A stretch of 17,131 nt of DNA. Origin: Paracoccaceae bacterium (GTDB lineage Bacteria > Pseudomonadota > Alphaproteobacteria > Rhodobacterales > Rhodobacteraceae). How positions within the stretch are numbered: position 1 is the stretch's first letter; each line of letters begins with the position of its first letter. Below are positions 7,972 through 16,362 of the stretch, piece by piece. The notes below the pieces were generated by a model. That model worked only from the letters and a program-made list of their open reading frames with translations, had not been told where the DNA came from and made no database searches. The stretch covers positions 1-17,131 of the forward strand of contig SKOX01000197.1 of NCBI GenBank assembly GCA_007119835.1, in the 5' to 3' direction. Both the position numbers and the translations under genes were made by a program.

Positions 7972-8717
7972 TGGACGCGGCTTTCGACTACAACCATCGC
8001 GAGAAGCCGCCCGCCTTCGTCGACGAGGTGAACGCGCTTATCGACCGCGCACTGGTCGCCGAGAACGCCATGCGGCCACAGCGGGACTATCTCGGCGGCA
8101 GCCGCCTCGGCGAGAGCTGCAGCCGCAAGCTGCAGTACGAGTATCTCAAGGTGCCAAAGGACGACGGCGCCGACTTCACCGGGAAGTCGTTGCGCATCTT
8201 TGCCCTAGGCCACGTGCTTGAGGACCTGGCGATCGAATGGCTGCGCAAGGCCGGGTTCGATCTGCGCGTGCGGAACCGGCACGGCGAGCAGTTCGGGTTC
8301 TCCGCGGCCGGCGGCCGGGTGCAAGGGCACGCGGACGGCGTGGTCGTCGCGGCTCCGAACGGCGTGGCGGTGCCGGCACTCTGGGAGTGCAAGTCGGCGA
8401 ACGCCAAAAACTGGCGCGACATCGTCAAGCGCGGGGTGAGCGTCGCCAAGCCGATCTACGCCGCCCAGATCGCGCTCTACCAGGCCTACCTCGGGCTCAC
8501 CGAGCACCCGGCGCTTTTCACCGCGGTCAACAAGGACACCTGCGAGCTCTGGCACGAGCTCGTGCCCTTCGACGCTTCGCTCGCCCAGGTCACCAGCGAC
8601 AAGGCGGTGAAGATCCTGCGCGCCTGCGACGCCGGCGAGCTGTTGCCGCGCCACACGGCCGATCCCGAGCACTTCGAGTGCCGCTTCTGCGCCTGGAAGG
8701 AGAGGTGCTGGGAATGA
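7971..8717 (+). CDS. PD-(D/E)XK nuclease, Cas4/RecB-like, likely Fe-S
   Basis: A 248-residue nuclease of the RecB/Cas4 group. The catalytic set is visible: H81 and E84 in GHVLEDLAIEWL, D122 in GHADGVV, E139 and K141 in WECKSA, then Q166 and Y170 in AAQIALYQAYL. Four cysteines, C50 (GESCSRK) and C237, C240, C246 (FECRFCAWKERCW), are arranged as in Cas4/AddB, where they bind a 4Fe-4S cluster. It probably degrades or resects DNA ends in phage replication or recombination. It overlaps the primase start (ATGA at 8714-8717). There is no CRISPR array or other cas gene in the window, so a CRISPR role is not supported. Confidence 0.9.
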   Translation: MDAAFDYNHREKPPAFVDEVNALIDRALVAENAMRPQRDYLGGSRLGESCSRKLQYEYLKVPKDDGADFTGKSLRIFALGHVLEDLAIEWLRKAGFDLRVRNRHGEQFGFSAAGGRVQGHADGVVVAAPNGVAVPALWECKSANAKNWRDIVKRGVSVAKPIYAAQIALYQAYLGLTEHPALFTAVNKDTCELWHELVPFDASLAQVTSDKAVKILRACDAGELLPRHTADPEHFECRFCAWKERCWE

Positions 8718-11077
8718 CCGTCAAAACCGGATCCCACCCCGAGGTGACGGCGGTCGAGTCCGATCCCGTCATGATTGCGCTCTACGCCGACGTCGTCTTC
8801 GGCTACTGTGAGCGCTGGGTGCCGGTGCGCGCCCTGGCTGAGAAGGGTGCCGCCGACGCGCCCCCGCACACCCCGTTCATAAAGTCCGACGGCGAGCTCG
8901 CTTCGCGCCTCGCTTTGCAGGCCAGCTGGGCGGCCGATGCCGGCATGGCGCTGTTCGTGGTGCCCGGCACGGTGGAGACGCCCGGCGAGGCCCGCGCCGA
9001 GCACATCGCGCAGACGCAGGTCGTGCTGGTCGACCTCGACCACGGCGACATCGCGGCGAAGCGGGAGCATCTCCTGCGCCACCTGGGCGTGCCAACGCTG
9101 GAGGTCGCCTCGGGCGGCGTCACGCCGGACGGCCAGCGGAAGCTGCATCTCTACTGGCGGCTGACCGAGCCGGCCGAGGACGAGGATATCGCTCGGGTCT
9201 GCCGCGCTCGGCACATGATCGCCACCAAGGTCGGCGGCGACCCGGCGTTCCGCTCGGCCCATCAGCCGATCCGTGTCGCAGGTTCGGTGCACGCCAAATC
9301 CGGGATGCGGCGGCTCGTCGAGATCCTGCATCACGATCCGCGCGACCACGATCTCGGGGAGCTGATCGAGGCGATCATCGCCATGCCGCCGCTCGAGGGC
9401 GAGGCGGCCTCGGATTTCGACTTCAACGACGCCACCTCGACGAGCGGCAGCGTCACCGAGCTCTTCGGCTGCAAGGTCCGCGAAGGGGGCGTCGACGGCA
9501 CCACGCGGTTCGACGCCCTTTCGCGGGTGATCGGCTACTGGATCCGGCGCTGCCGCGAGGGGCATGTCACCCCGGCGCAGGCCTGGGACGAGATCGTCGC
9601 CTACAACGCCGCGCGCATCGACCCGCCCTGGCCCGAGGCGCGGCTGGCGCAGGAGGCCGAGCGCCTCTGGAAACGGGACGCCGATCGCAACGGCGACCTG
9701 CCCGACGGCGATGATGGTGACGGCGATCGGCCCTCTGGCGGAGACGGCGACGGGCCGGTTCCCGTGCGCTTCACCGAAGATGCGCTCGCCGCGACCTTCG
9801 CCGAGCGGCACGTCGACACCTGGCGCTACGTCGCGGCGTGGGGGCAGTGGCTCACCTGGTCGGGCGTTGTCTGGCAACGCGAGGACACGCTGCAGGCGTT
9901 CGACCTCGCGCGGCGCGTCTGCCGAGAGGCGGCGTCGCGCGCGGGCGCTGCCAAGCTGAAGGCAAAGCTGTCGTCGGCCGCGACGGTATCGGCGGTGGAG
10001 CGGCTCGCCCGGAGCGACCGTCGCCACGCCAGCACCACCGACGTCTGGGACCGCGACCCCTGGCTCCTGAACACGCCGAAGGGTGTGGTCGACCTCCGCA
10101 GCGGCGCCGTGGCTGCGCACGATCCGCTGCTGCACATGACGAAGACCGCGGGCGCCTCGGCCGCCGGCGACTGCCCGGTCTGGATGGAGTTCCTCGACAC
10201 GGTCACTGGCCAGGACGCCGAGCTACAGGCCTACCTGCAGCGGATGGCGGGCTACTGCCTGAGCGGCGTCACCACCGAGCACGCGCTCTTCTTCCTGTAC
10301 GGCACCGGCGCCAACGGCAAGTCGGTCTTCGCCAACACGCTCACCGCCATCATGGGCGACTACGCCACCGTCGCCGCCATGGACATGTTCATGGCGACAC
10401 ACGGCGACCGGCACCCGACCGACATGGCGGGGCTGCGCGGCGCGCGCATCGTCACCTCGATCGAGACCGAGCAGGGCAGCCGCTGGGCGGAGAGCAAGCT
10501 GAAGGCGCTGACTGGCGGGGACAAGATCACCGCCCGCTTCATGCGGCAGGACTTCTTCGAGTTCACGCCGCAGTTCAAGCTGCTGATCGTCGGCAACCAC
10601 AAGCCCTCGATCCGCAACGTCGACGAGGCGATGAAGCGCCGGCTGCACATGGTGCCGTTCACCGTCACCATCCCGGCGCCGAAACGCGACAAGCGGCTGC
10701 CCGACCGGCTACTGGCCGAGCGCGACGGCATCCTCGCCTGGGCGCTGCAGGGCTGCCTCGAATGGCAGCGCACCGGGCTCCGCCCGCCCGCCGCGGTGAT
10801 GGCCGCCACCGAGGACTACTTCGAGGCAGAGGACGCCATCGGGCGCTGGATCGACGAGCGCTGCGTGAAGGGTCCCCAGCACAGCGAGGGCTCGACCCCC
10901 CTCTATACCAGCTGGAAGTCCTGGGCGGAGGCGAACGGCGAGTACGCCGGCTCGATGAAGCGCTTCTCCGAGACCTTGGGCAATCGCGGATTCCAGAAGC
11001 GGAACACCGCCCAAGCCCGCGGATTCCGCGGCATCGGGCTCAAAGACAGCAATTCTGACCTGTTTGCGGAGGACTGA
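8714..11077 (+). CDS. Phage/plasmid primase-SF3 helicase, P4 family, with RepB-like primase domain
   Basis: A 787-residue replication protein. The N-terminal third is a RepB-like primase domain: VVLVDLDHGD (about 106-115), VASGGVTPDGQRKLHLYWRL (about 131-150) and HQPIRVAGSVHAKSG (about 183-197). An acidic glycine/aspartate linker lies near 330-350. The C-terminal half is a D5_N/superfamily 3 helicase: Walker A GTGANGKS (530-537), motif B GARIVTSIETE (about 576-586) and motif C LLIVGNH with RNVDEAMKRRLHMVPF (about 624-648). A final domain (about 715-780, IGRWIDERC, SWKSWAEANGEYAGSMKRF, RGF) is the wing-like domain seen after P4/D5 helicases and recurs in the next protein. The ATG at 8714 overlaps the nuclease stop. 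It should prime and unwind at the element's origin. The length is usual for the family. Confidence 0.95.
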   Translation: MTVKTGSHPEVTAVESDPVMIALYADVVFGYCERWVPVRALAEKGAADAPPHTPFIKSDGELASRLALQASWAADAGMALFVVPGTVETPGEARAEHIAQTQVVLVDLDHGDIAAKREHLLRHLGVPTLEVASGGVTPDGQRKLHLYWRLTEPAEDEDIARVCRARHMIATKVGGDPAFRSAHQPIRVAGSVHAKSGMRRLVEILHHDPRDHDLGELIEAIIAMPPLEGEAASDFDFNDATSTSGSVTELFGCKVREGGVDGTTRFDALSRVIGYWIRRCREGHVTPAQAWDEIVAYNAARIDPPWPEARLAQEAERLWKRDADRNGDLPDGDDGDGDRPSGGDGDGPVPVRFTEDALAATFAERHVDTWRYVAAWGQWLTWSGVVWQREDTLQAFDLARRVCREAASRAGAAKLKAKLSSAATVSAVERLARSDRRHASTTDVWDRDPWLLNTPKGVVDLRSGAVAAHDPLLHMTKTAGASAAGDCPVWMEFLDTVTGQDAELQAYLQRMAGYCLSGVTTEHALFFLYGTGANGKSVFANTLTAIMGDYATVAAMDMFMATHGDRHPTDMAGLRGARIVTSIETEQGSRWAESKLKALTGGDKITARFMRQDFFEFTPQFKLLIVGNHKPSIRNVDEAMKRRLHMVPFTVTIPAPKRDKRLPDRLLAERDGILAWALQGCLEWQRTGLRPPAAVMAATEDYFEAEDAIGRWIDERCVKGPQHSEGSTPLYTSWKSWAEANGEYAGSMKRFSETLGNRGFQKRNTAQARGFRGIGLKDSNSDLFAED

Positions 11078-11081
11078 GGAA

Positions 11082-11996
11082 ATGGCAGGGAAATCAAGGG
11101 CAGTTGCGGGTGTTGCGGGTCATCCCCTTATCACCGTCACGCGCGCGCATACGCGCGCCTGTAGTGCTCATAGGGAGGAACCCGCAACACCCGCAATGCC
11201 CGCCATGCCGACGATGGCGCCGATCGACGAATGGCTCGCAGAGCGGTGCTTTCTCGATCCGAATGCGACCTGCGGCACGGGCGGCCTGTTCGCCGACTGG
11301 ACGTCATGGGCACTGGCGCGCGGAGAGTATGTCGGCTCGGTGAAGGCTTTCGCCCTCGCGATCGGACGCCGGGGCTTCCGAAGCGCGAGGACCCGCCTGC
11401 AGCGCGGGTTCATCGGCCTCGCGCTCAGGGCCAACCCTGGCTGCCAGCTGCTGTCTCCGCCGGCGATGGTCGGCCCGAGAACGGAAGATCAGACCGAGGC
11501 TGTCACGCCAGTGCCCTCCGCCGATGGGAGCGGTGCCATCCTCGCGCTCGACCTCGGGACCACGACCGGCTGGGCGATCCGGACCTTCGACGGGCTGGTC
11601 ACCAGCGGCACCGTCGGCTTCCGGCCGAACCGCTTCGACGGCGGCGGCATGCGCTACCTGCGCTTCACCAACTGGCTGACGGAGCTCGACCGGCTGAGCG
11701 GCCCGATCGCCGCGATTTGGTATGAAGAGGTGCGCCGGCACGCCGGCACCGATGCCGCGCACGTCTACGGCGGACTGATGGCGACGTTGACGTCGTGGGG
11801 CGAACTGCGGGGCGTTCCATACGCCGGCGTGCCGGTCGGCACCATCAAGCTCCACGCCACCGGCAAGGGCAACGCACCAAAAGAGGCGATGATCGGGGCG
11901 GCGCGCGCCCGCGGCTTTTCGCCCGCCGACGACAACGAGGCCGACGCCATTGCCGTCCTGATGTGGGCGCTCGAAGCCGGCGGAGGTGTGCGATGA
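11082..11996 (+). CDS. RuvC-like resolvase fused to a primase-type C-terminal domain
   Basis: A 304-residue fusion. Residues about 47-120 (PIDEWLAERC, DWTSWALARGEYVGSVKAF, RRGF, RGFIGLAL) match the C-terminal domain of the preceding primase. Residues about 153-300 are a RuvC/RNase H-fold nuclease: AILALDLGTTTGWA with D157, YEEV with E215/E216, the RuvC-like segment GTIKLHATGKGNAPKEAM, and ADDNEADAIAV with D284 and D288. It likely cuts branched DNA such as Holliday junctions. The ATG at 11082 has GGAGG 9 bases upstream. Residues 9-39 are encoded by the large palindrome 11104-11196 and look like low-complexity filler (AGVAG, ATPAMPAM). A start at ATG 11196 would leave the palindrome in a leader. 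The nuclease call is strong; the start is uncertain. Confidence 0.87.
   Translation: MAGKSRAVAGVAGHPLITVTRAHTRACSAHREEPATPAMPAMPTMAPIDEWLAERCFLDPNATCGTGGLFADWTSWALARGEYVGSVKAFALAIGRRGFRSARTRLQRGFIGLALRANPGCQLLSPPAMVGPRTEDQTEAVTPVPSADGSGAILALDLGTTTGWAIRTFDGLVTSGTVGFRPNRFDGGGMRYLRFTNWLTELDRLSGPIAAIWYEEVRRHAGTDAAHVYGGLMATLTSWGELRGVPYAGVPVGTIKLHATGKGNAPKEAMIGAARARGFSPADDNEADAIAVLMWALEAGGGVR
11104..11196. repeat. 93-bp nested palindrome, candidate origin or cruciform
   Basis: Outer arms of 17 bp are perfectly inverted: TTGCGGGTGTTGCGGGT at 11104-11120 and ACCCGCAACACCCGCAA at 11180-11196. Each arm contains TTGCGGGT twice in tandem. At the centre GCGCGCG (11141-11147) pairs with CGCGCGC (11152-11158) around a 4-base loop. 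The inner and outer dyads share almost the same centre (11149.5 and 11150). Bases 11138-11158 alternate pyrimidine-purine without a break, a Z-DNA-prone pattern. The spacer halves are also partly complementary. It starts 26 bases after the primase stop, where P4/RepB-type origins can lie. Origin function is inferred. Confidence 0.75.
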
Positions 11997-13391: not shown

Positions 13392-13682
13392 TCAGGCGAC
13401 ACCCTCGACCAACAGCAGGTCGGTCTCGGCCGCACGTTCGCGCACGCGCCTGGCAGCCGTGTACACGTCCGACTCGTAGAAGCGGCGCGCCGCCTCCATG
13501 TCGTCGAACTCGATCACGACGACGGAGCCGCGCAGGTCCCCCTCGCGGTGATCGGCCTCCGGGTTGCGCACAAGGACGCGGCCGCCATGGTCCGCGATCG
13601 CCGGTCCGGCCATCTTCTTGAACTCTTCGTATCCCTCGTCGTCGTGCACCCGGATATGGGCCACGAGATATGCCTTCGGCAT
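13392..13682 (-). CDS. DUF1330 family protein, 96 aa
   Basis: The product starts MPKAYLVAHIRVHDDEGYEEFKKMAGPAI and has GGRVLVRNPEADHREGD, VVVIEFDDMEAARRFYESDVYTAARRVRE and DLLLVEGV. This is the ferredoxin-like DUF1330 fold (dimeric alpha-beta barrel), complete and of normal length. GGGAGGAG precedes the ATG; the longer upstream reading to 13766 is rejected because it would run over the methyltransferase promoter region. These are usually chromosomal, metabolism-related genes of unclear substrate, not phage genes. It lies opposite to the phage genes on both sides, which suggests acquired cargo. Confidence 0.9.
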   Translation of the reverse strand: MPKAYLVAHIRVHDDEGYEEFKKMAGPAIADHGGRVLVRNPEADHREGDLRGSVVVIEFDDMEAARRFYESDVYTAARRVRERAAETDLLLVEGVA

Positions 13683-13786
13683 CTGCTCCTCCCTCTCCCG
13701 AACGTGGAAGGGTAGCGCGGGGGCTCGTAAGCGCGAAGCCAAAACCGGCCGCGGCCGGACCACCATTTCGACCAGGATCGACCTGC
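13683..13786. promoter_or_regulatory. Divergent gap between DUF1330 and methyltransferase genes
   Basis: This 104-bp gap must hold the starts of two divergent transcripts. It contains a perfect 14-bp palindrome, CCGGCCGCGGCCGG, at 13745-13758, 28 bases before the methyltransferase ATG. Its pure GC content means that it may simply reflect base composition, but the position suits an operator. AGGA before 13787 serves as ribosome site. Confidence 0.35.
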
Positions 13787-15076
13787 ATGACCCTCGCCTA
13801 CGCTCCCGAGCGGATCGAGCAATGGCCGCTTGCGCGGCTCCAGCCCTATGCGAACAACGCGAAGGTGCATGGCGCCGACCAGGTCGCGAAGCTCGCCGCC
13901 AGCATGGCCGAGTTCGGGTGGACCGTGCCGTGTCTCGTCGCCGAGGACGGGGGGCTGATCGCGGGGCATGGCCGGGTGCTCGCGGCGACGCAGCTGGGGC
14001 TAACCGAGGCGCCGGTCATCGTGCTCGGGCATCTGACCGAGGCGCAGCGCCGGGCCTACCGGATCGCGGACAATAAGCTGACCGAACTTGGGACATGGGA
14101 TGAGGCGCTGCTCTCGGCGGAGCTGCAGGACCTGCTGGCCGAGGAATTCGATCTGTCGCTGATCGGTTTCTCGGAAGCCGAGCTCGACCAACTGCTCGCA
14201 GCGGAGGGCTTGGACGAACCCGGTGCGCGCGAAGGCGAGGACGAGATCCCCGAGACGCCGGCGGACCCGGTCAGCCGCCCCGGCGACCTTTGGGTTCTGG
14301 GCAGGCATCGGCTGCTCTGCGGCGACAGCACTGTGGCCACGGACGTCGAGCGCGTGCTCGACGGCGTGACGCCGCTGCTGATGGTCAGCGATCCGCCCTA
14401 CGGCGTGGAGTACGATCCCTCCTGGCGGAACAAGGCAGGCGCGGCAGCGACCCGGCGTACCGGCAAGGTGCTGAACGACGACCGCGCCGACTGGCGCGAG
14501 GCCTGGGCGCTGTTCCCGGGCGATGTCGCCTACGTCTGGCACGGCGCGCTGCACGCGGCGACCGTCGCCGAGAGCCTGGAGGCCGCGGGCTTCACGATCC
14601 GCTCGCAGATCATCTGGGCCAAGGAGCGCCTGGTGCTCAGCCGCGGCGACTACCACTGGCAGCACGAGCCGATGTGGTACGCCGTGAAGAAGACGGGCAA
14701 GGGCCACTGGGCCGGCGACCGCAAGCAGACGACGCTCTGGCAGATTCCGAGCCGCGACCAAGACGCCGATACAGTCCACGGGACCCAGAAGCCGGTCGAG
14801 TGCTTGCGCCGGCCGATCCTCAACAACTCGAGCCCGGGCCAGGCGGTTTACGAGCCGTTCATGGGGTCGGGAACGACGCTGATCGCGGCCGAGACCACCG
14901 GCCGCGTCTGCCTCGGGATCGAGCTGAACCCGGCCTACGTCGATGTGGCCGTCGAGCGGTGGCAGCGGTTCACCGGCAAGGTGGCGGTACTGGATGGCAA
15001 TGGCCAGAGCTTCGACGAGCTGAAGACCGCCGGCTCGGGAGCTCGCCTTGAGCCGAATGGAGAGGCGGCCGCGTAG
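13787..15076 (+). CDS. ParB-domain DNA (adenine/cytosine-N4) methyltransferase
   Basis: A 429-residue fusion. Residues about 5-110 are a ParB/Spo0J N-terminal-like domain: PYANNAKVHGADQVAKLAASMAEFGW and the ParB box GGLIAGHGRVLAA. Residues about 165-410 are an amino-methyltransferase: motif IV DPPY (202-205) comes before motif I FMGSGTT (358-364), so the order is that of beta-class N6-adenine/N4-cytosine enzymes. GTQKPVECL lies just before motif I, as usual. No restriction gene adjoins it, so it is an orphan enzyme, of the kind phages use to modify their DNA or alter regulation. The start at 13787 removes a 39-residue upstream reading that overlaps the DUF1330 gene. Target sequence unknown. 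Confidence 0.94.
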   Translation: MTLAYAPERIEQWPLARLQPYANNAKVHGADQVAKLAASMAEFGWTVPCLVAEDGGLIAGHGRVLAATQLGLTEAPVIVLGHLTEAQRRAYRIADNKLTELGTWDEALLSAELQDLLAEEFDLSLIGFSEAELDQLLAAEGLDEPGAREGEDEIPETPADPVSRPGDLWVLGRHRLLCGDSTVATDVERVLDGVTPLLMVSDPPYGVEYDPSWRNKAGAAATRRTGKVLNDDRADWREAWALFPGDVAYVWHGALHAATVAESLEAAGFTIRSQIIWAKERLVLSRGDYHWQHEPMWYAVKKTGKGHWAGDRKQTTLWQIPSRDQDADTVHGTQKPVECLRRPILNNSSPGQAVYEPFMGSGTTLIAAETTGRVCLGIELNPAYVDVAVERWQRFTGKVAVLDGNGQSFDELKTAGSGARLEPNGEAAA

Positions 15077-15113: not shown

Positions 15114-15968
15114 TCAGGAGCTTTTCCTAACGAAGTCGGCGAACGCCTCTGCGTAGTCCGGATGCCAGCGAGAGAGCGCCGGCCGGTTCTCGACGATATC
15201 ACCGGCAGCCCAGAGGATGCGGCGCTCGTCCAGCTCCCGCGGAACATCGTTGTCAGGGCAGAGGATGTAGAAGTCGCCGGCCTCGAGGCGCCTCATCATG
15301 AACTCGGCTGTCTGCTCAGGGGTCCAGGCACCAGATGGCTTCTCGGAGCGCCCCTGAGCGGTAAGCTCCGTGAAAACGAAGCCCGGGATCAGGAGGTGAG
15401 CCGTCAGTCTGCAGCCCTGCGTGTTCCTGAGCTCGTGCGCGAGGGCCTCAGTGAAAGCCTTCACGCCCGCCTTCGAGACGTTGTAGGCCGGATCACCAGG
15501 TGGCGTCGTGATGCCCTGCTTCGAGCCGGTGTTGATCACGAGCCCCGGTCGACCGCGCGAGATCATGTTTGGCACGAAGACGCGACTGCCGTTGATCACG
15601 CCCCAGAGGTTGACGTCGATTACCTTTTCCCAGTTCTCCTGCGGCCCGAAGAGGGCGCTGCCGGGCTGGATGCCGGCGTTGTTCATGAGAACATCGGCGC
15701 CCCCGAACCGCTCACGCACGCCGGCCTCGAGCCGCTGAAGATCTTCCACGCGGCTGACATCCGTCTCCATCGCCATGATGGCGGACGGCCCCTCGGGCGC
15801 CACTTCGGCAAGCTGGGCGGCAGCGCGGGAGAGGCGCTCTTCGCCGATGTCTGCAATGCAGACCTTGAGGCCGAGGCGTGCGAATTCGGCCGCTGCAGCG
15901 TGACCGATTCCCGATGCGCCGCCGGTGACGACAGCGACGGCCCCGGCAGTGAAGGCGGGATGCGGCAT
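15114..15968 (-). CDS. Short-chain dehydrogenase/reductase (SDR)
   Basis: A 284-residue classical SDR. The Rossmann motif is TGGASGIG (15-22), an acidic D40 at the end of the second strand favours NAD(H), NNAG is at 96-99, and the catalytic residues are N120, S149, Y162 and K166 (YNVSK). The extension after about residue 215 (ARRLEAGDFYILCPDNDVPRE and the C-terminal helix) is seen in several SDRs acting on small alcohols or ketones; the substrate cannot be told. AAAGGAA precedes the ATG at 15968; the upstream reading to 16163 overlaps the next phage gene and is rejected. It is intact, on the opposite strand to its phage neighbours, and looks like metabolic cargo. Confidence 0.94.
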   Translation of the reverse strand: MPHPAFTAGAVAVVTGGASGIGHAAAAEFARLGLKVCIADIGEERLSRAAAQLAEVAPEGPSAIMAMETDVSRVEDLQRLEAGVRERFGGADVLMNNAGIQPGSALFGPQENWEKVIDVNLWGVINGSRVFVPNMISRGRPGLVINTGSKQGITTPPGDPAYNVSKAGVKAFTEALAHELRNTQGCRLTAHLLIPGFVFTELTAQGRSEKPSGAWTPEQTAEFMMRRLEAGDFYILCPDNDVPRELDERRILWAAGDIVENRPALSRWHPDYAEAFADFVRKSS

Positions 15969-16128
15969 GGGCGTTTCCTTTCGTAGCGCCGGTGGAAGAT
16001 CGGCGGCTGTAGATCCGTTGCAGGCGGATGCCGGCGATAAGACGTTTGGCTCACCGGTTGGGTTGAAGCCTACCGATCGCGATGCCGGCGGTGAAGGCGC
16101 GACTGAGTGCAACGACGGAAAGATCATC

Positions 16129-16362
16129 ATGCAGTCGCGGCGGATGTCGCTGATCGAGGCCACGACGAACGTGGTGGTGGGCTATGCACTCGCGCTCGCG
16201 ACGCAGCTGGTCGTGTTCCCGCTCTTCGGGTTCGAGGCCGGGCTCCGCGAGCACCTGACAATCGGGCTCGCCTTCCTCGGCGTGTCGCTTGCGAGGGGCT
16301 ACGCGCTGCGGCGGCTGTTCGAGCGGCTCCGCGGCCGCGGCGGCGTGGTTGACCGGAGGTGA
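16129..16362 (+). CDS. DUF7220-like small membrane protein, 77 aa
   Basis: The product starts MQSRRMSLIEATTNVVVGYALAL, with a first membrane helix at about 14-36 (NVVVGYALALATQLVVFPLF) and a second at about 43-62 (LTIGLAFLGVSLARGYALRR), then a basic tail. The MSLxEAxxNVxxGY opening and ARxYALRRLF motif are those of the DUF7220 phage family. GGAAAG lies ahead of the ATG. The positive ends and short loop suggest a two-pass inner-membrane hairpin. Its role in the element is unknown. Confidence 0.85.
   Translation: MQSRRMSLIEATTNVVVGYALALATQLVVFPLFGFEAGLREHLTIGLAFLGVSLARGYALRRLFERLRGRGGVVDRR

Follow-up and report, generated by a model that had tools for sequence, protein, structure and literature searches.

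Results

A nested dyad at the junction of a primase gene and a RuvC-like gene

The window analysed here (the whole stretch of 17,131 nucleotides of contig SKOX01000197.1 from a Paracoccaceae bacterium) encodes a primase-helicase followed on the same strand by a RuvC-like open reading frame (ORF), and a large dyad begins after the primase stop codon (11075-11077), within the open frame of the RuvC-like ORF (Table 1). The dyad spans 11103-11197 and consists of a tandem pair of 9-bp repeats (GTTGCGGGT), a core and the repeat pair in inverted orientation. Its 17-nt arms (11104-11120 and 11180-11196) are perfectly complementary and stand 59 nt apart; with the flanking base included they form four 9-bp units, and the single mismatch among these four is the outermost base pair of the dyad. 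The core (GC 0.63) holds 21 nt of pyrimidine-purine alternation and an inner stem (GCGCGCG at 11141-11147 and CGCGCGC at 11152-11158). The inner stem is centred at 11149.5 and the outer arms at 11150, so the two centres agree to half a base. The original prediction, made from the letters of the window alone, had described these features (perfect 17-bp arms with tandem repeats, a second 7-bp stem with the same centre, 21 alternating bases in the middle, and a location right after the primase and inside or before the RuvC-like gene), and all were borne out.

Table 1. Features at the dyad locus (positions in the window)
Feature	Coordinates	Strand	Description
Primase-helicase	8714..11077	+	Pfam D5_N and DUF5906, PHROG DNA primase; 787 aa; proposed initiator
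Primase C-terminal winged helix	10835..11041	+	Residues ~708-776; helix/strand order in predicted model; proposed iteron reader
RuvC-like ORF	11082..11996	+	phrog_159 match at residues 142-299, E 1.5e-26; alternative start ~11205
Left arm	11103..11120	+	Two tandem 9-bp iterons GTTGCGGGT (11103-11111, 11112-11120)
Core between iteron pairs	11121..11179	.	59 bp; holds pyrimidine-purine run 11138-11158 and inner stem
Right arm	11180..11197	-	Inverted iterons (minus strand): 11180-11188 GTTGCGGGT, 11189-11197 ATTGCGGGT
Second primase-type winged helix	11214..11435	+	N-terminus of RuvC-like protein, residues ~45-118

This is the best dyad with a 20-90-nt loop in the window. No dyad with a score of at least 17 was found in 20 Markov-1 sequences of the size of the window, where the mean number scoring at least 15 was 0.05. 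Folded as single-stranded DNA, the stretch reaches -39.9 kcal/mol (z -8.8). Scans for Rfam families, promoter or terminator sites, and tRNAs were empty, and the dyad model has no second match in the 3.12-Mb assembly (85% complete).

Residues 345-787 of the primase-helicase were modelled at pLDDT 85.8, and all 50 PDB matches among those listed are to ASFV PrimPol and the poxvirus D5/E5 helicases. In this predicted model the protein ends in a winged-helix-like fold. Further along the window, Pfam identifies an N6/N4 DNA methylase gene (13670-15076), the N-terminus of which looks ParB-like by eye; AcaML1 and the Eleftheria locus likewise have annotated methylase genes downstream. A minus-strand ORF (15114-16163) resembles, by eye, a host short-chain dehydrogenase, so the element may end near 15.1 kb.

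The dyad is conserved 3' of the primase gene

We surveyed 90 loci that cover the primase C-terminus, from viral contigs and the window, a set in which the window is included three times (the window itself, L001, and L002) and five loci end too early. A dyad lies 3' of the primase stop in 82 of the 85 loci with enough DNA (67 with a score of at least 13 and 15 with a score of 9-12); with the window copies excluded, it is present in 79 of 82 viral loci, 64 of them with a score of at least 13. Several viral contigs are duplicated, and the 82 represent 59 distinct dyad regions. The dyad falls below the loose threshold in three loci (L112, L154, and L155) that carry the same primase and RuvC. Repeat-like units are visible there by eye, and these loci are a partial counter-example to the original prediction, by which the dyad should persist wherever the same replication genes are kept. 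One further locus (L141), counted among those that are too short, has long G runs after the primase stop and has lost the arms, probably through sequencing or assembly error.

Bacterial genomes provided 27 loci, one without the primase C-terminus. The dyad was detected in 25 of the 26 others (22 with a score of at least 13) and was absent from L199, the primase of which is 59% identical. The named hosts include Paracoccus, Ruegeria, Jannaschia, Chelatococcus, and an uncultured Magnetospirillum. A covariance model of the dyad alone, run against 196 genomes with no protein information, matched seven places, the window's own included. Six adjoin an SF3 primase gene, and at four of these six the best identity to the compared primases is only 45-52%. 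At one of the seven (L446), a separate scan at score 13 found no dyad. The weakest match (L448, 1500-1584) has no primase match within 1.5 kb in its 3-kb locus, shares its contig with a strong dyad ~34 kb away and is upstream of an ORF that by eye resembles a ParB/DNA-methylase type protein.

We also detected dyads before RuvC beside other replication proteins, with quite different sequences. Where RuvC is kept and only the N-terminal part of the primase is alike, a dyad precedes RuvC in 11 of 26 loci (score at least 13), the rest having none; where RuvC is kept with no primase match, this holds for 26 of 43 loci (score at least 14), again with none in the rest. Several loci (L024, L026, L029-L032, L035, L039, L047, and others) share a common 17-bp dyad (CTTCTTTCAATATTTCA) before RuvC without a clear tandem repeat; they have the same RuvC and another replication protein (DUF3987-like by eye in L024). 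GC skew, a check suggested with the original prediction, gave no support: it does not turn at the dyad, right exceeding left in 14 of 27 loci, and in plasmid pMNOD03 it was uninformative.

The arms covary around a core of near-constant length

Arm covariation was analysed in 27 distinct sequences (28 unique arm pairs), leaving out L122, which has lost the outer right unit. Compensatory double changes occur at 16 of 18 arm pairs and number 55 in all. Of 486 arm cells, 94.9% pair, compared with 84.0% after shuffling and 24-49% with the partners slid, and none of 500 shuffles reaches the observed pairing or double-change count; the arms covary across homologous loci, a check proposed with the original prediction. 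Mismatches in the arms comprise 16 G.T, 17 A.C, and 15 others, and the near-equal numbers of G.T and A.C indicate no RNA-strand preference.

The core is 59 nt long in 42 of the 67 loci with arms of at least 16 nt and 55-68 nt in the rest. Within the primase family of the window, all but one of the 30 unique left arms that reach 17 nt (29 of 30) show 9 as their best tandem period, and the mean GC over 51 cores is 0.61. Near-invariant elements of the core are CGTYACGCG, a central GCGC, and flanking TA boxes. In its best single register, 52% of the core matches its own reverse complement, and symmetry in the best of seven registers averages 0.56 versus 0.38 for shuffled cores; the palindrome of the family cores is partial, centred half a base to each side of the outer centre, and not continuous. 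Long pyrimidine-purine cores are common in the window's family and in the AcaML1 family without being universal, runs of 7 occurring in four Aminay-type cores and in pRN1.

Of 77 loci, 71 keep the RuvC frame open across the dyad, three have it partly open, and three have it closed. Translation across the dyad is thus possible, and coding could account for part of the sequence constraint. The dyad is retained in all six loci with a closed or partly open frame (in L122 as a partial dyad), which argues against the encoded peptide, rather than the dyad, being what is conserved, a possibility raised together with the original prediction.

Similar dyads adjoin other families of primases

We searched from -300 to +1000 of the primase gene end in other families and found a dyad with a score of at least 13 in 66 of 68 BPP-1-type, 64 of 70 AcaML1-type, 4 of 7 Aminay-type, and 35 of 75 VapE-type loci. 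With slightly different bounds, a dyad was present in 63 of 64 BPP-1, 55 of 61 AcaML1, and 33 of 72 VapE loci. Control stretches of equal length within the gene bodies contained none (0/69, 0/80, and 0/78 for BPP-1, AcaML1, and VapE, respectively); the corresponding counts were 9/59, 0/56, and 0/75 for upstream and 1/59, 1/48, and 11/61 for downstream stretches. Nine is the best period in 33 of 40 BPP-1, 16 of 17 AcaML1, and 19 of 21 VapE unique arms of at least 17 nt, compared with 14-16% of shuffled arms. No RuvC-like tblastn match was found in 71 loci of BPP-1-type relatives (at most 8.7 kb each). Similar tandem-arm dyads also occur upstream of P4-family primase genes, once in a Thermaerobacter plasmid (L165, 2523-2621) and twice in a Streptomyces plasmid (L172, 2404-2495 and 2682-2760).

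Iteron sequences track the primase C-terminus

Tracking was measured as the partial rank correlation of iteron distance with the distance between protein parts, a statistic that ignores phylogeny. Over 61 loci, the iterons correlate with the primase C-terminus at 0.37 given the primase part, 0.37 given the D5_N part, and 0.20 given the SF3 part (0/300 permutations each). The strongest segment comprises residues 740-779 (0.36 given the whole of 345-787), with 530-569 reaching 0.25 and 440-479 reaching 0.21. In the 43 loci with RuvC aligned, primase residues 740-779 have a partial correlation of 0.62 given RuvC residues 145-200 and of 0.49 given the SF3 part; RuvC 145-200 given primase 740-779 yields -0.02, so the iterons do not follow RuvC once the primase C-terminus is allowed for. 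In the window's family the SF3 part retains a residual signal (0.16 given 740-779 and 0.17 given 690-787), and no part of the primase gene lies closer to the dyad than its C-terminus.

The residues of the wing differ between iteron classes. The primase wing reads FEKFK or FDKFK where the iterons are TGGCG, KHS/KNS-NG where they are TTTACGG or TTGACGG, and mostly xN-T in closer relatives with TGACGG or GCGACGG iterons. Exceptions are the distant loci L149, L153, L156, and L158, which have TGACGG iterons and another wing.

Tracking by the C-terminal 95 residues, given the helicase part, was also detected in the other families: AcaML1 (0.65, 51 loci), VapE-type (0.75, 29 loci), and BPP-1 (0.20, 59 loci; 0/300 permutations each), the C-terminal signal in BPP-1 being modest. 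The helicase part given the C-terminus gives 0.10 in BPP-1, -0.17 in AcaML1, and 0.31 in VapE-type loci. Among pairs with similar helicases (distance below 0.15), the C-terminal distances in BPP-1, AcaML1, and VapE are 0.32, 0.28, and 0.33 when the iterons differ (115, 119, and 7 pairs) but 0.04, 0.11, and 0.10 when they are identical; BPP-1 pairs with different iterons also have a greater helicase distance (0.107 vs 0.031). This statistical tracking points to the primase C-terminal domain as the putative iteron reader, and the behaviour of pRN1, P4 alpha, and SaPI Rep suggests that it would act by binding.

A primase-type winged helix on the RuvC-like protein

The database copy of the RuvC-like protein has 263 residues, and its start would lie at ~11205, past the dyad. 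An alignment of 41 sequences shows five invariant acidic residues (D157, E215, D283, D284, and D288). The full-length model is poor (mean pLDDT 51.5), with very low confidence in the stretch encoded across the dyad (block means 26-30), and only a winged helix is well modelled. Residues 45-117 match the C-terminus of phrog_6088, the family of the upstream primase (E 5.5e-7), and the winged helices of the primase and of RuvC at the same locus are ~35% identical. The fusion of winged helix and RuvC was identified in 16 of 91 loci, 11 of them distinct, in a sample of 8 loci chosen as known fusions and 83 newly fetched ones that gives no estimate of frequency; only L453-L455 are new. Many dyad-bearing loci have a RuvC without the extra winged helix.

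The wing residues of the fused RuvC proteins can be set beside the iterons of the same loci: FN with TGGCGGAT (L124, L132, and L137), VQ with ATGGCGG/ATGGCAG (L126 and L453), HK with TTTACGGGT (L003 and L454), HN with GCGACGGGT (L083), YK in the GCGACGG-type locus L455, and AR with TTGCGGGT in the window. This match between wing and iteron class is only suggestive because the few fused lineages are mutually related. From these sequences we tentatively propose that, in a subset of elements including that of the window, the origin-reading winged helix of the initiator may have been copied onto a RuvC-like nuclease. The product could be an origin-directed junction resolvase that docks on the same iterons, and its role there might be to resolve intermediates of replication, to restart them, or to turn the origin off.

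Discussion

The dyad as a probable replication origin

The architecture of the dyad, its conservation and position, the compensatory change of its arms, its near-constant spacing, and the tracking of its iterons by the primase C-terminus are observed directly. The position, covariation, spacing, and C-terminal correlation, together with counterparts in pRN1 and P4 crr, lead us to consider the dyad very probably the site at which a prophage-like element starts replication in cis, or at which its initiator is loaded, used by the upstream primase-helicase reading duplex iterons. By analogy with pRN1, P4 alpha, and SaPI Rep, origin activity would involve binding, double-hexamer loading, and core melting. 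The ligand of the dyad would be the primase-helicase encoded just upstream, the C-terminal winged helix of which would read the 9-bp iterons as double-stranded DNA. With two iterons on either flank of a core whose length hardly varies, the facing pairs could position two SF3 helicase assemblies head to head; ATP-driven unwinding would then open the core, and the N-terminal primase part would make the first primers.

The main rival to duplex iterons is a stem-loop reading, by which an extruded cruciform or single-stranded hairpin forms and the 17-bp stem itself is recognised, as proposed for pRN1; the site would still be an origin, and the mode of recognition would differ. The strong fold of the dyad and the partly palindromic core are consistent with this, as is the pairing in L147, which is perfect although its two tandem units differ, and in pRN1 a second mutation restoring the symmetry of the stem is reported to have rescued replication (PMC4234260). 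The similarity of dyad partners (0.905) also exceeds that of tandem neighbours (0.843) and of crossed pairs (0.849), but a symmetric double-stranded site predicts similarity of partners too. A stem has no need of a period, yet period 9 dominates the arms of four primase families; the stems of L071 and L083 are imperfect, yet their iterons are recognisable; and a near-constant core length is unnecessary for a loop. We regard recognition of the stem as rather unlikely.

The original prediction had offered, beside an origin, the alternative that the RuvC-like protein has the dyad as its substrate or regulatory target; as a junction nuclease it would cut a cruciform or control its own gene there. 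The RuvC-like ORF starts around the dyad, its acidic residues are invariant, and the 11 distinct loci with a primase-type winged helix on RuvC show that some lineages carry a copy of the primase DNA-binding domain, which leaves room for RuvC action at the dyad. Many dyad loci have RuvC without the extra domain, though, and the dyads of BPP-1 relatives without a RuvC-like match in 71 loci of at most 8.7 kb, together with the absence of tracking of the RuvC core given the primase C-terminus, led us to reject a RuvC substrate as the sole reason for the dyad. The origin half of the prediction therefore stood and its resolvase half was unneeded; we consider a RuvC target improbable. A large stem in or just before the gene start might also suggest that the RuvC leader forms an RNA hairpin or attenuator, but this is very improbable: G.T mismatches are no more frequent than A.C, as strand-specific wobble would have them, no Rfam family or terminator-like site was found, and dyads also occur where no RuvC match was found, in BPP-1 at a distance of 466 nt past the gene end, and in L165 and L172 on the upstream side of the primase. 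The RNA reading was rejected on the mismatch symmetry and the dyads where no RuvC match was found. The nested palindrome with an alternating centre and a partly palindromic core could also recall a recombination (att/dif) site or a protelomerase-type telomere, like those of the N15 type. The palindrome of the core is far from continuous through its centre, so a protelomerase telomere was set aside; no integrase or protelomerase match was obtained in two scans covering 10 and 9 window proteins (part of the ORFs), and our survey of four primase families looked next to the primase gene and located the site there. A telomere or recombination site is scarcely plausible.

Comparison with known systems

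With the dyad read as an origin of duplex iterons, its design is most likely common to many phages and plasmids and seldom recognised as one kind. The pRN1 'stem-loop' origin, P4 crr, and many unannotated phage origins may represent a single design, namely two facing pairs of ~9-bp iterons beside the gene of an SF3 initiator that reads them. If so, the origins of many prophages would be predictable from sequence, and the C-terminal residues of each iteron class would be a candidate specificity code that is directly testable. Our literature search for P4-primase origins with iterons returned no match, and in the open-access literature the titles and abstract openings listed do not mention paired 9-bp iterons as a common plan.

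Among initiator helicases with downstream iterons, SaPI Rep is described as recognising its origin through its C-terminal domain, apparently as two hexamers (PMC7581432). The origins of E. coli PICIs likewise have two iteron sets flanking a core (PMC6092414). That core is described as AT-rich, unlike the cores of the window's family, and the GC-rich core (mean 0.61; 0.63 in the window) rules out an AT-rich PICI-type origin.

The P4 crr region, annotated as cis-required (NC_001609), lies directly 3' of the gene for the alpha primase-helicase; in it, two tandem octamers, spaced 9 bp from start to start, face two inverted octamers. The dyad of the window has the same arrangement of short iterons in tandem pairs, inverted with respect to each other, beside an alpha-type gene. 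Unlike the window, P4 crr comprises two 120-bp units with inverted octamers 18 bp apart and an extra octamer, and a separate origin region is annotated ~4.5 kb from crr.

The dyad of the Bordetella phages BPP-1 and BIP-1 has 22-nt arms, of period 9 in our reading of the BPP-1 sequence, and a loop of 60, downstream of the primase gene; it differs from the window in its iteron sequences, its AT-rich core (family mean GC 0.32), its distance from the primase gene end, and the lack of a RuvC-like match. In the Sulfolobus islandicus plasmid pRN1, a 100-bp dyad with 21-nt arms and a 58-bp core lies 3' of a primase/SF3/winged-helix gene; in our own reading of the sequence its arms have the 9-bp period seen in the window, and an AT-rich core and an archaeal host set it apart. 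The window shares with this pRN1/BPP-1 kind a large dyad with arms of ~20 nt and a loop of ~58-60 nt adjoining the initiator gene, and an initiator that combines an SF3 helicase with a C-terminal winged helix, the latter in the predicted model. All eight 3-bp deletions tested in the 58-bp loop of pRN1 abolished transformation, and the loop is said to tolerate base substitutions (Joshua et al. 2013, PMC3869888). The stem-loop is reported to be required and portable, with the same suggested for phage BIP-1, in an account in which pRN1 is said to be without a typical iteron structure (Berkner et al. 2014, PMC4234260). Whether duplex iterons or a stem-loop are recognised bears on the disagreement about pRN1 replication described there.
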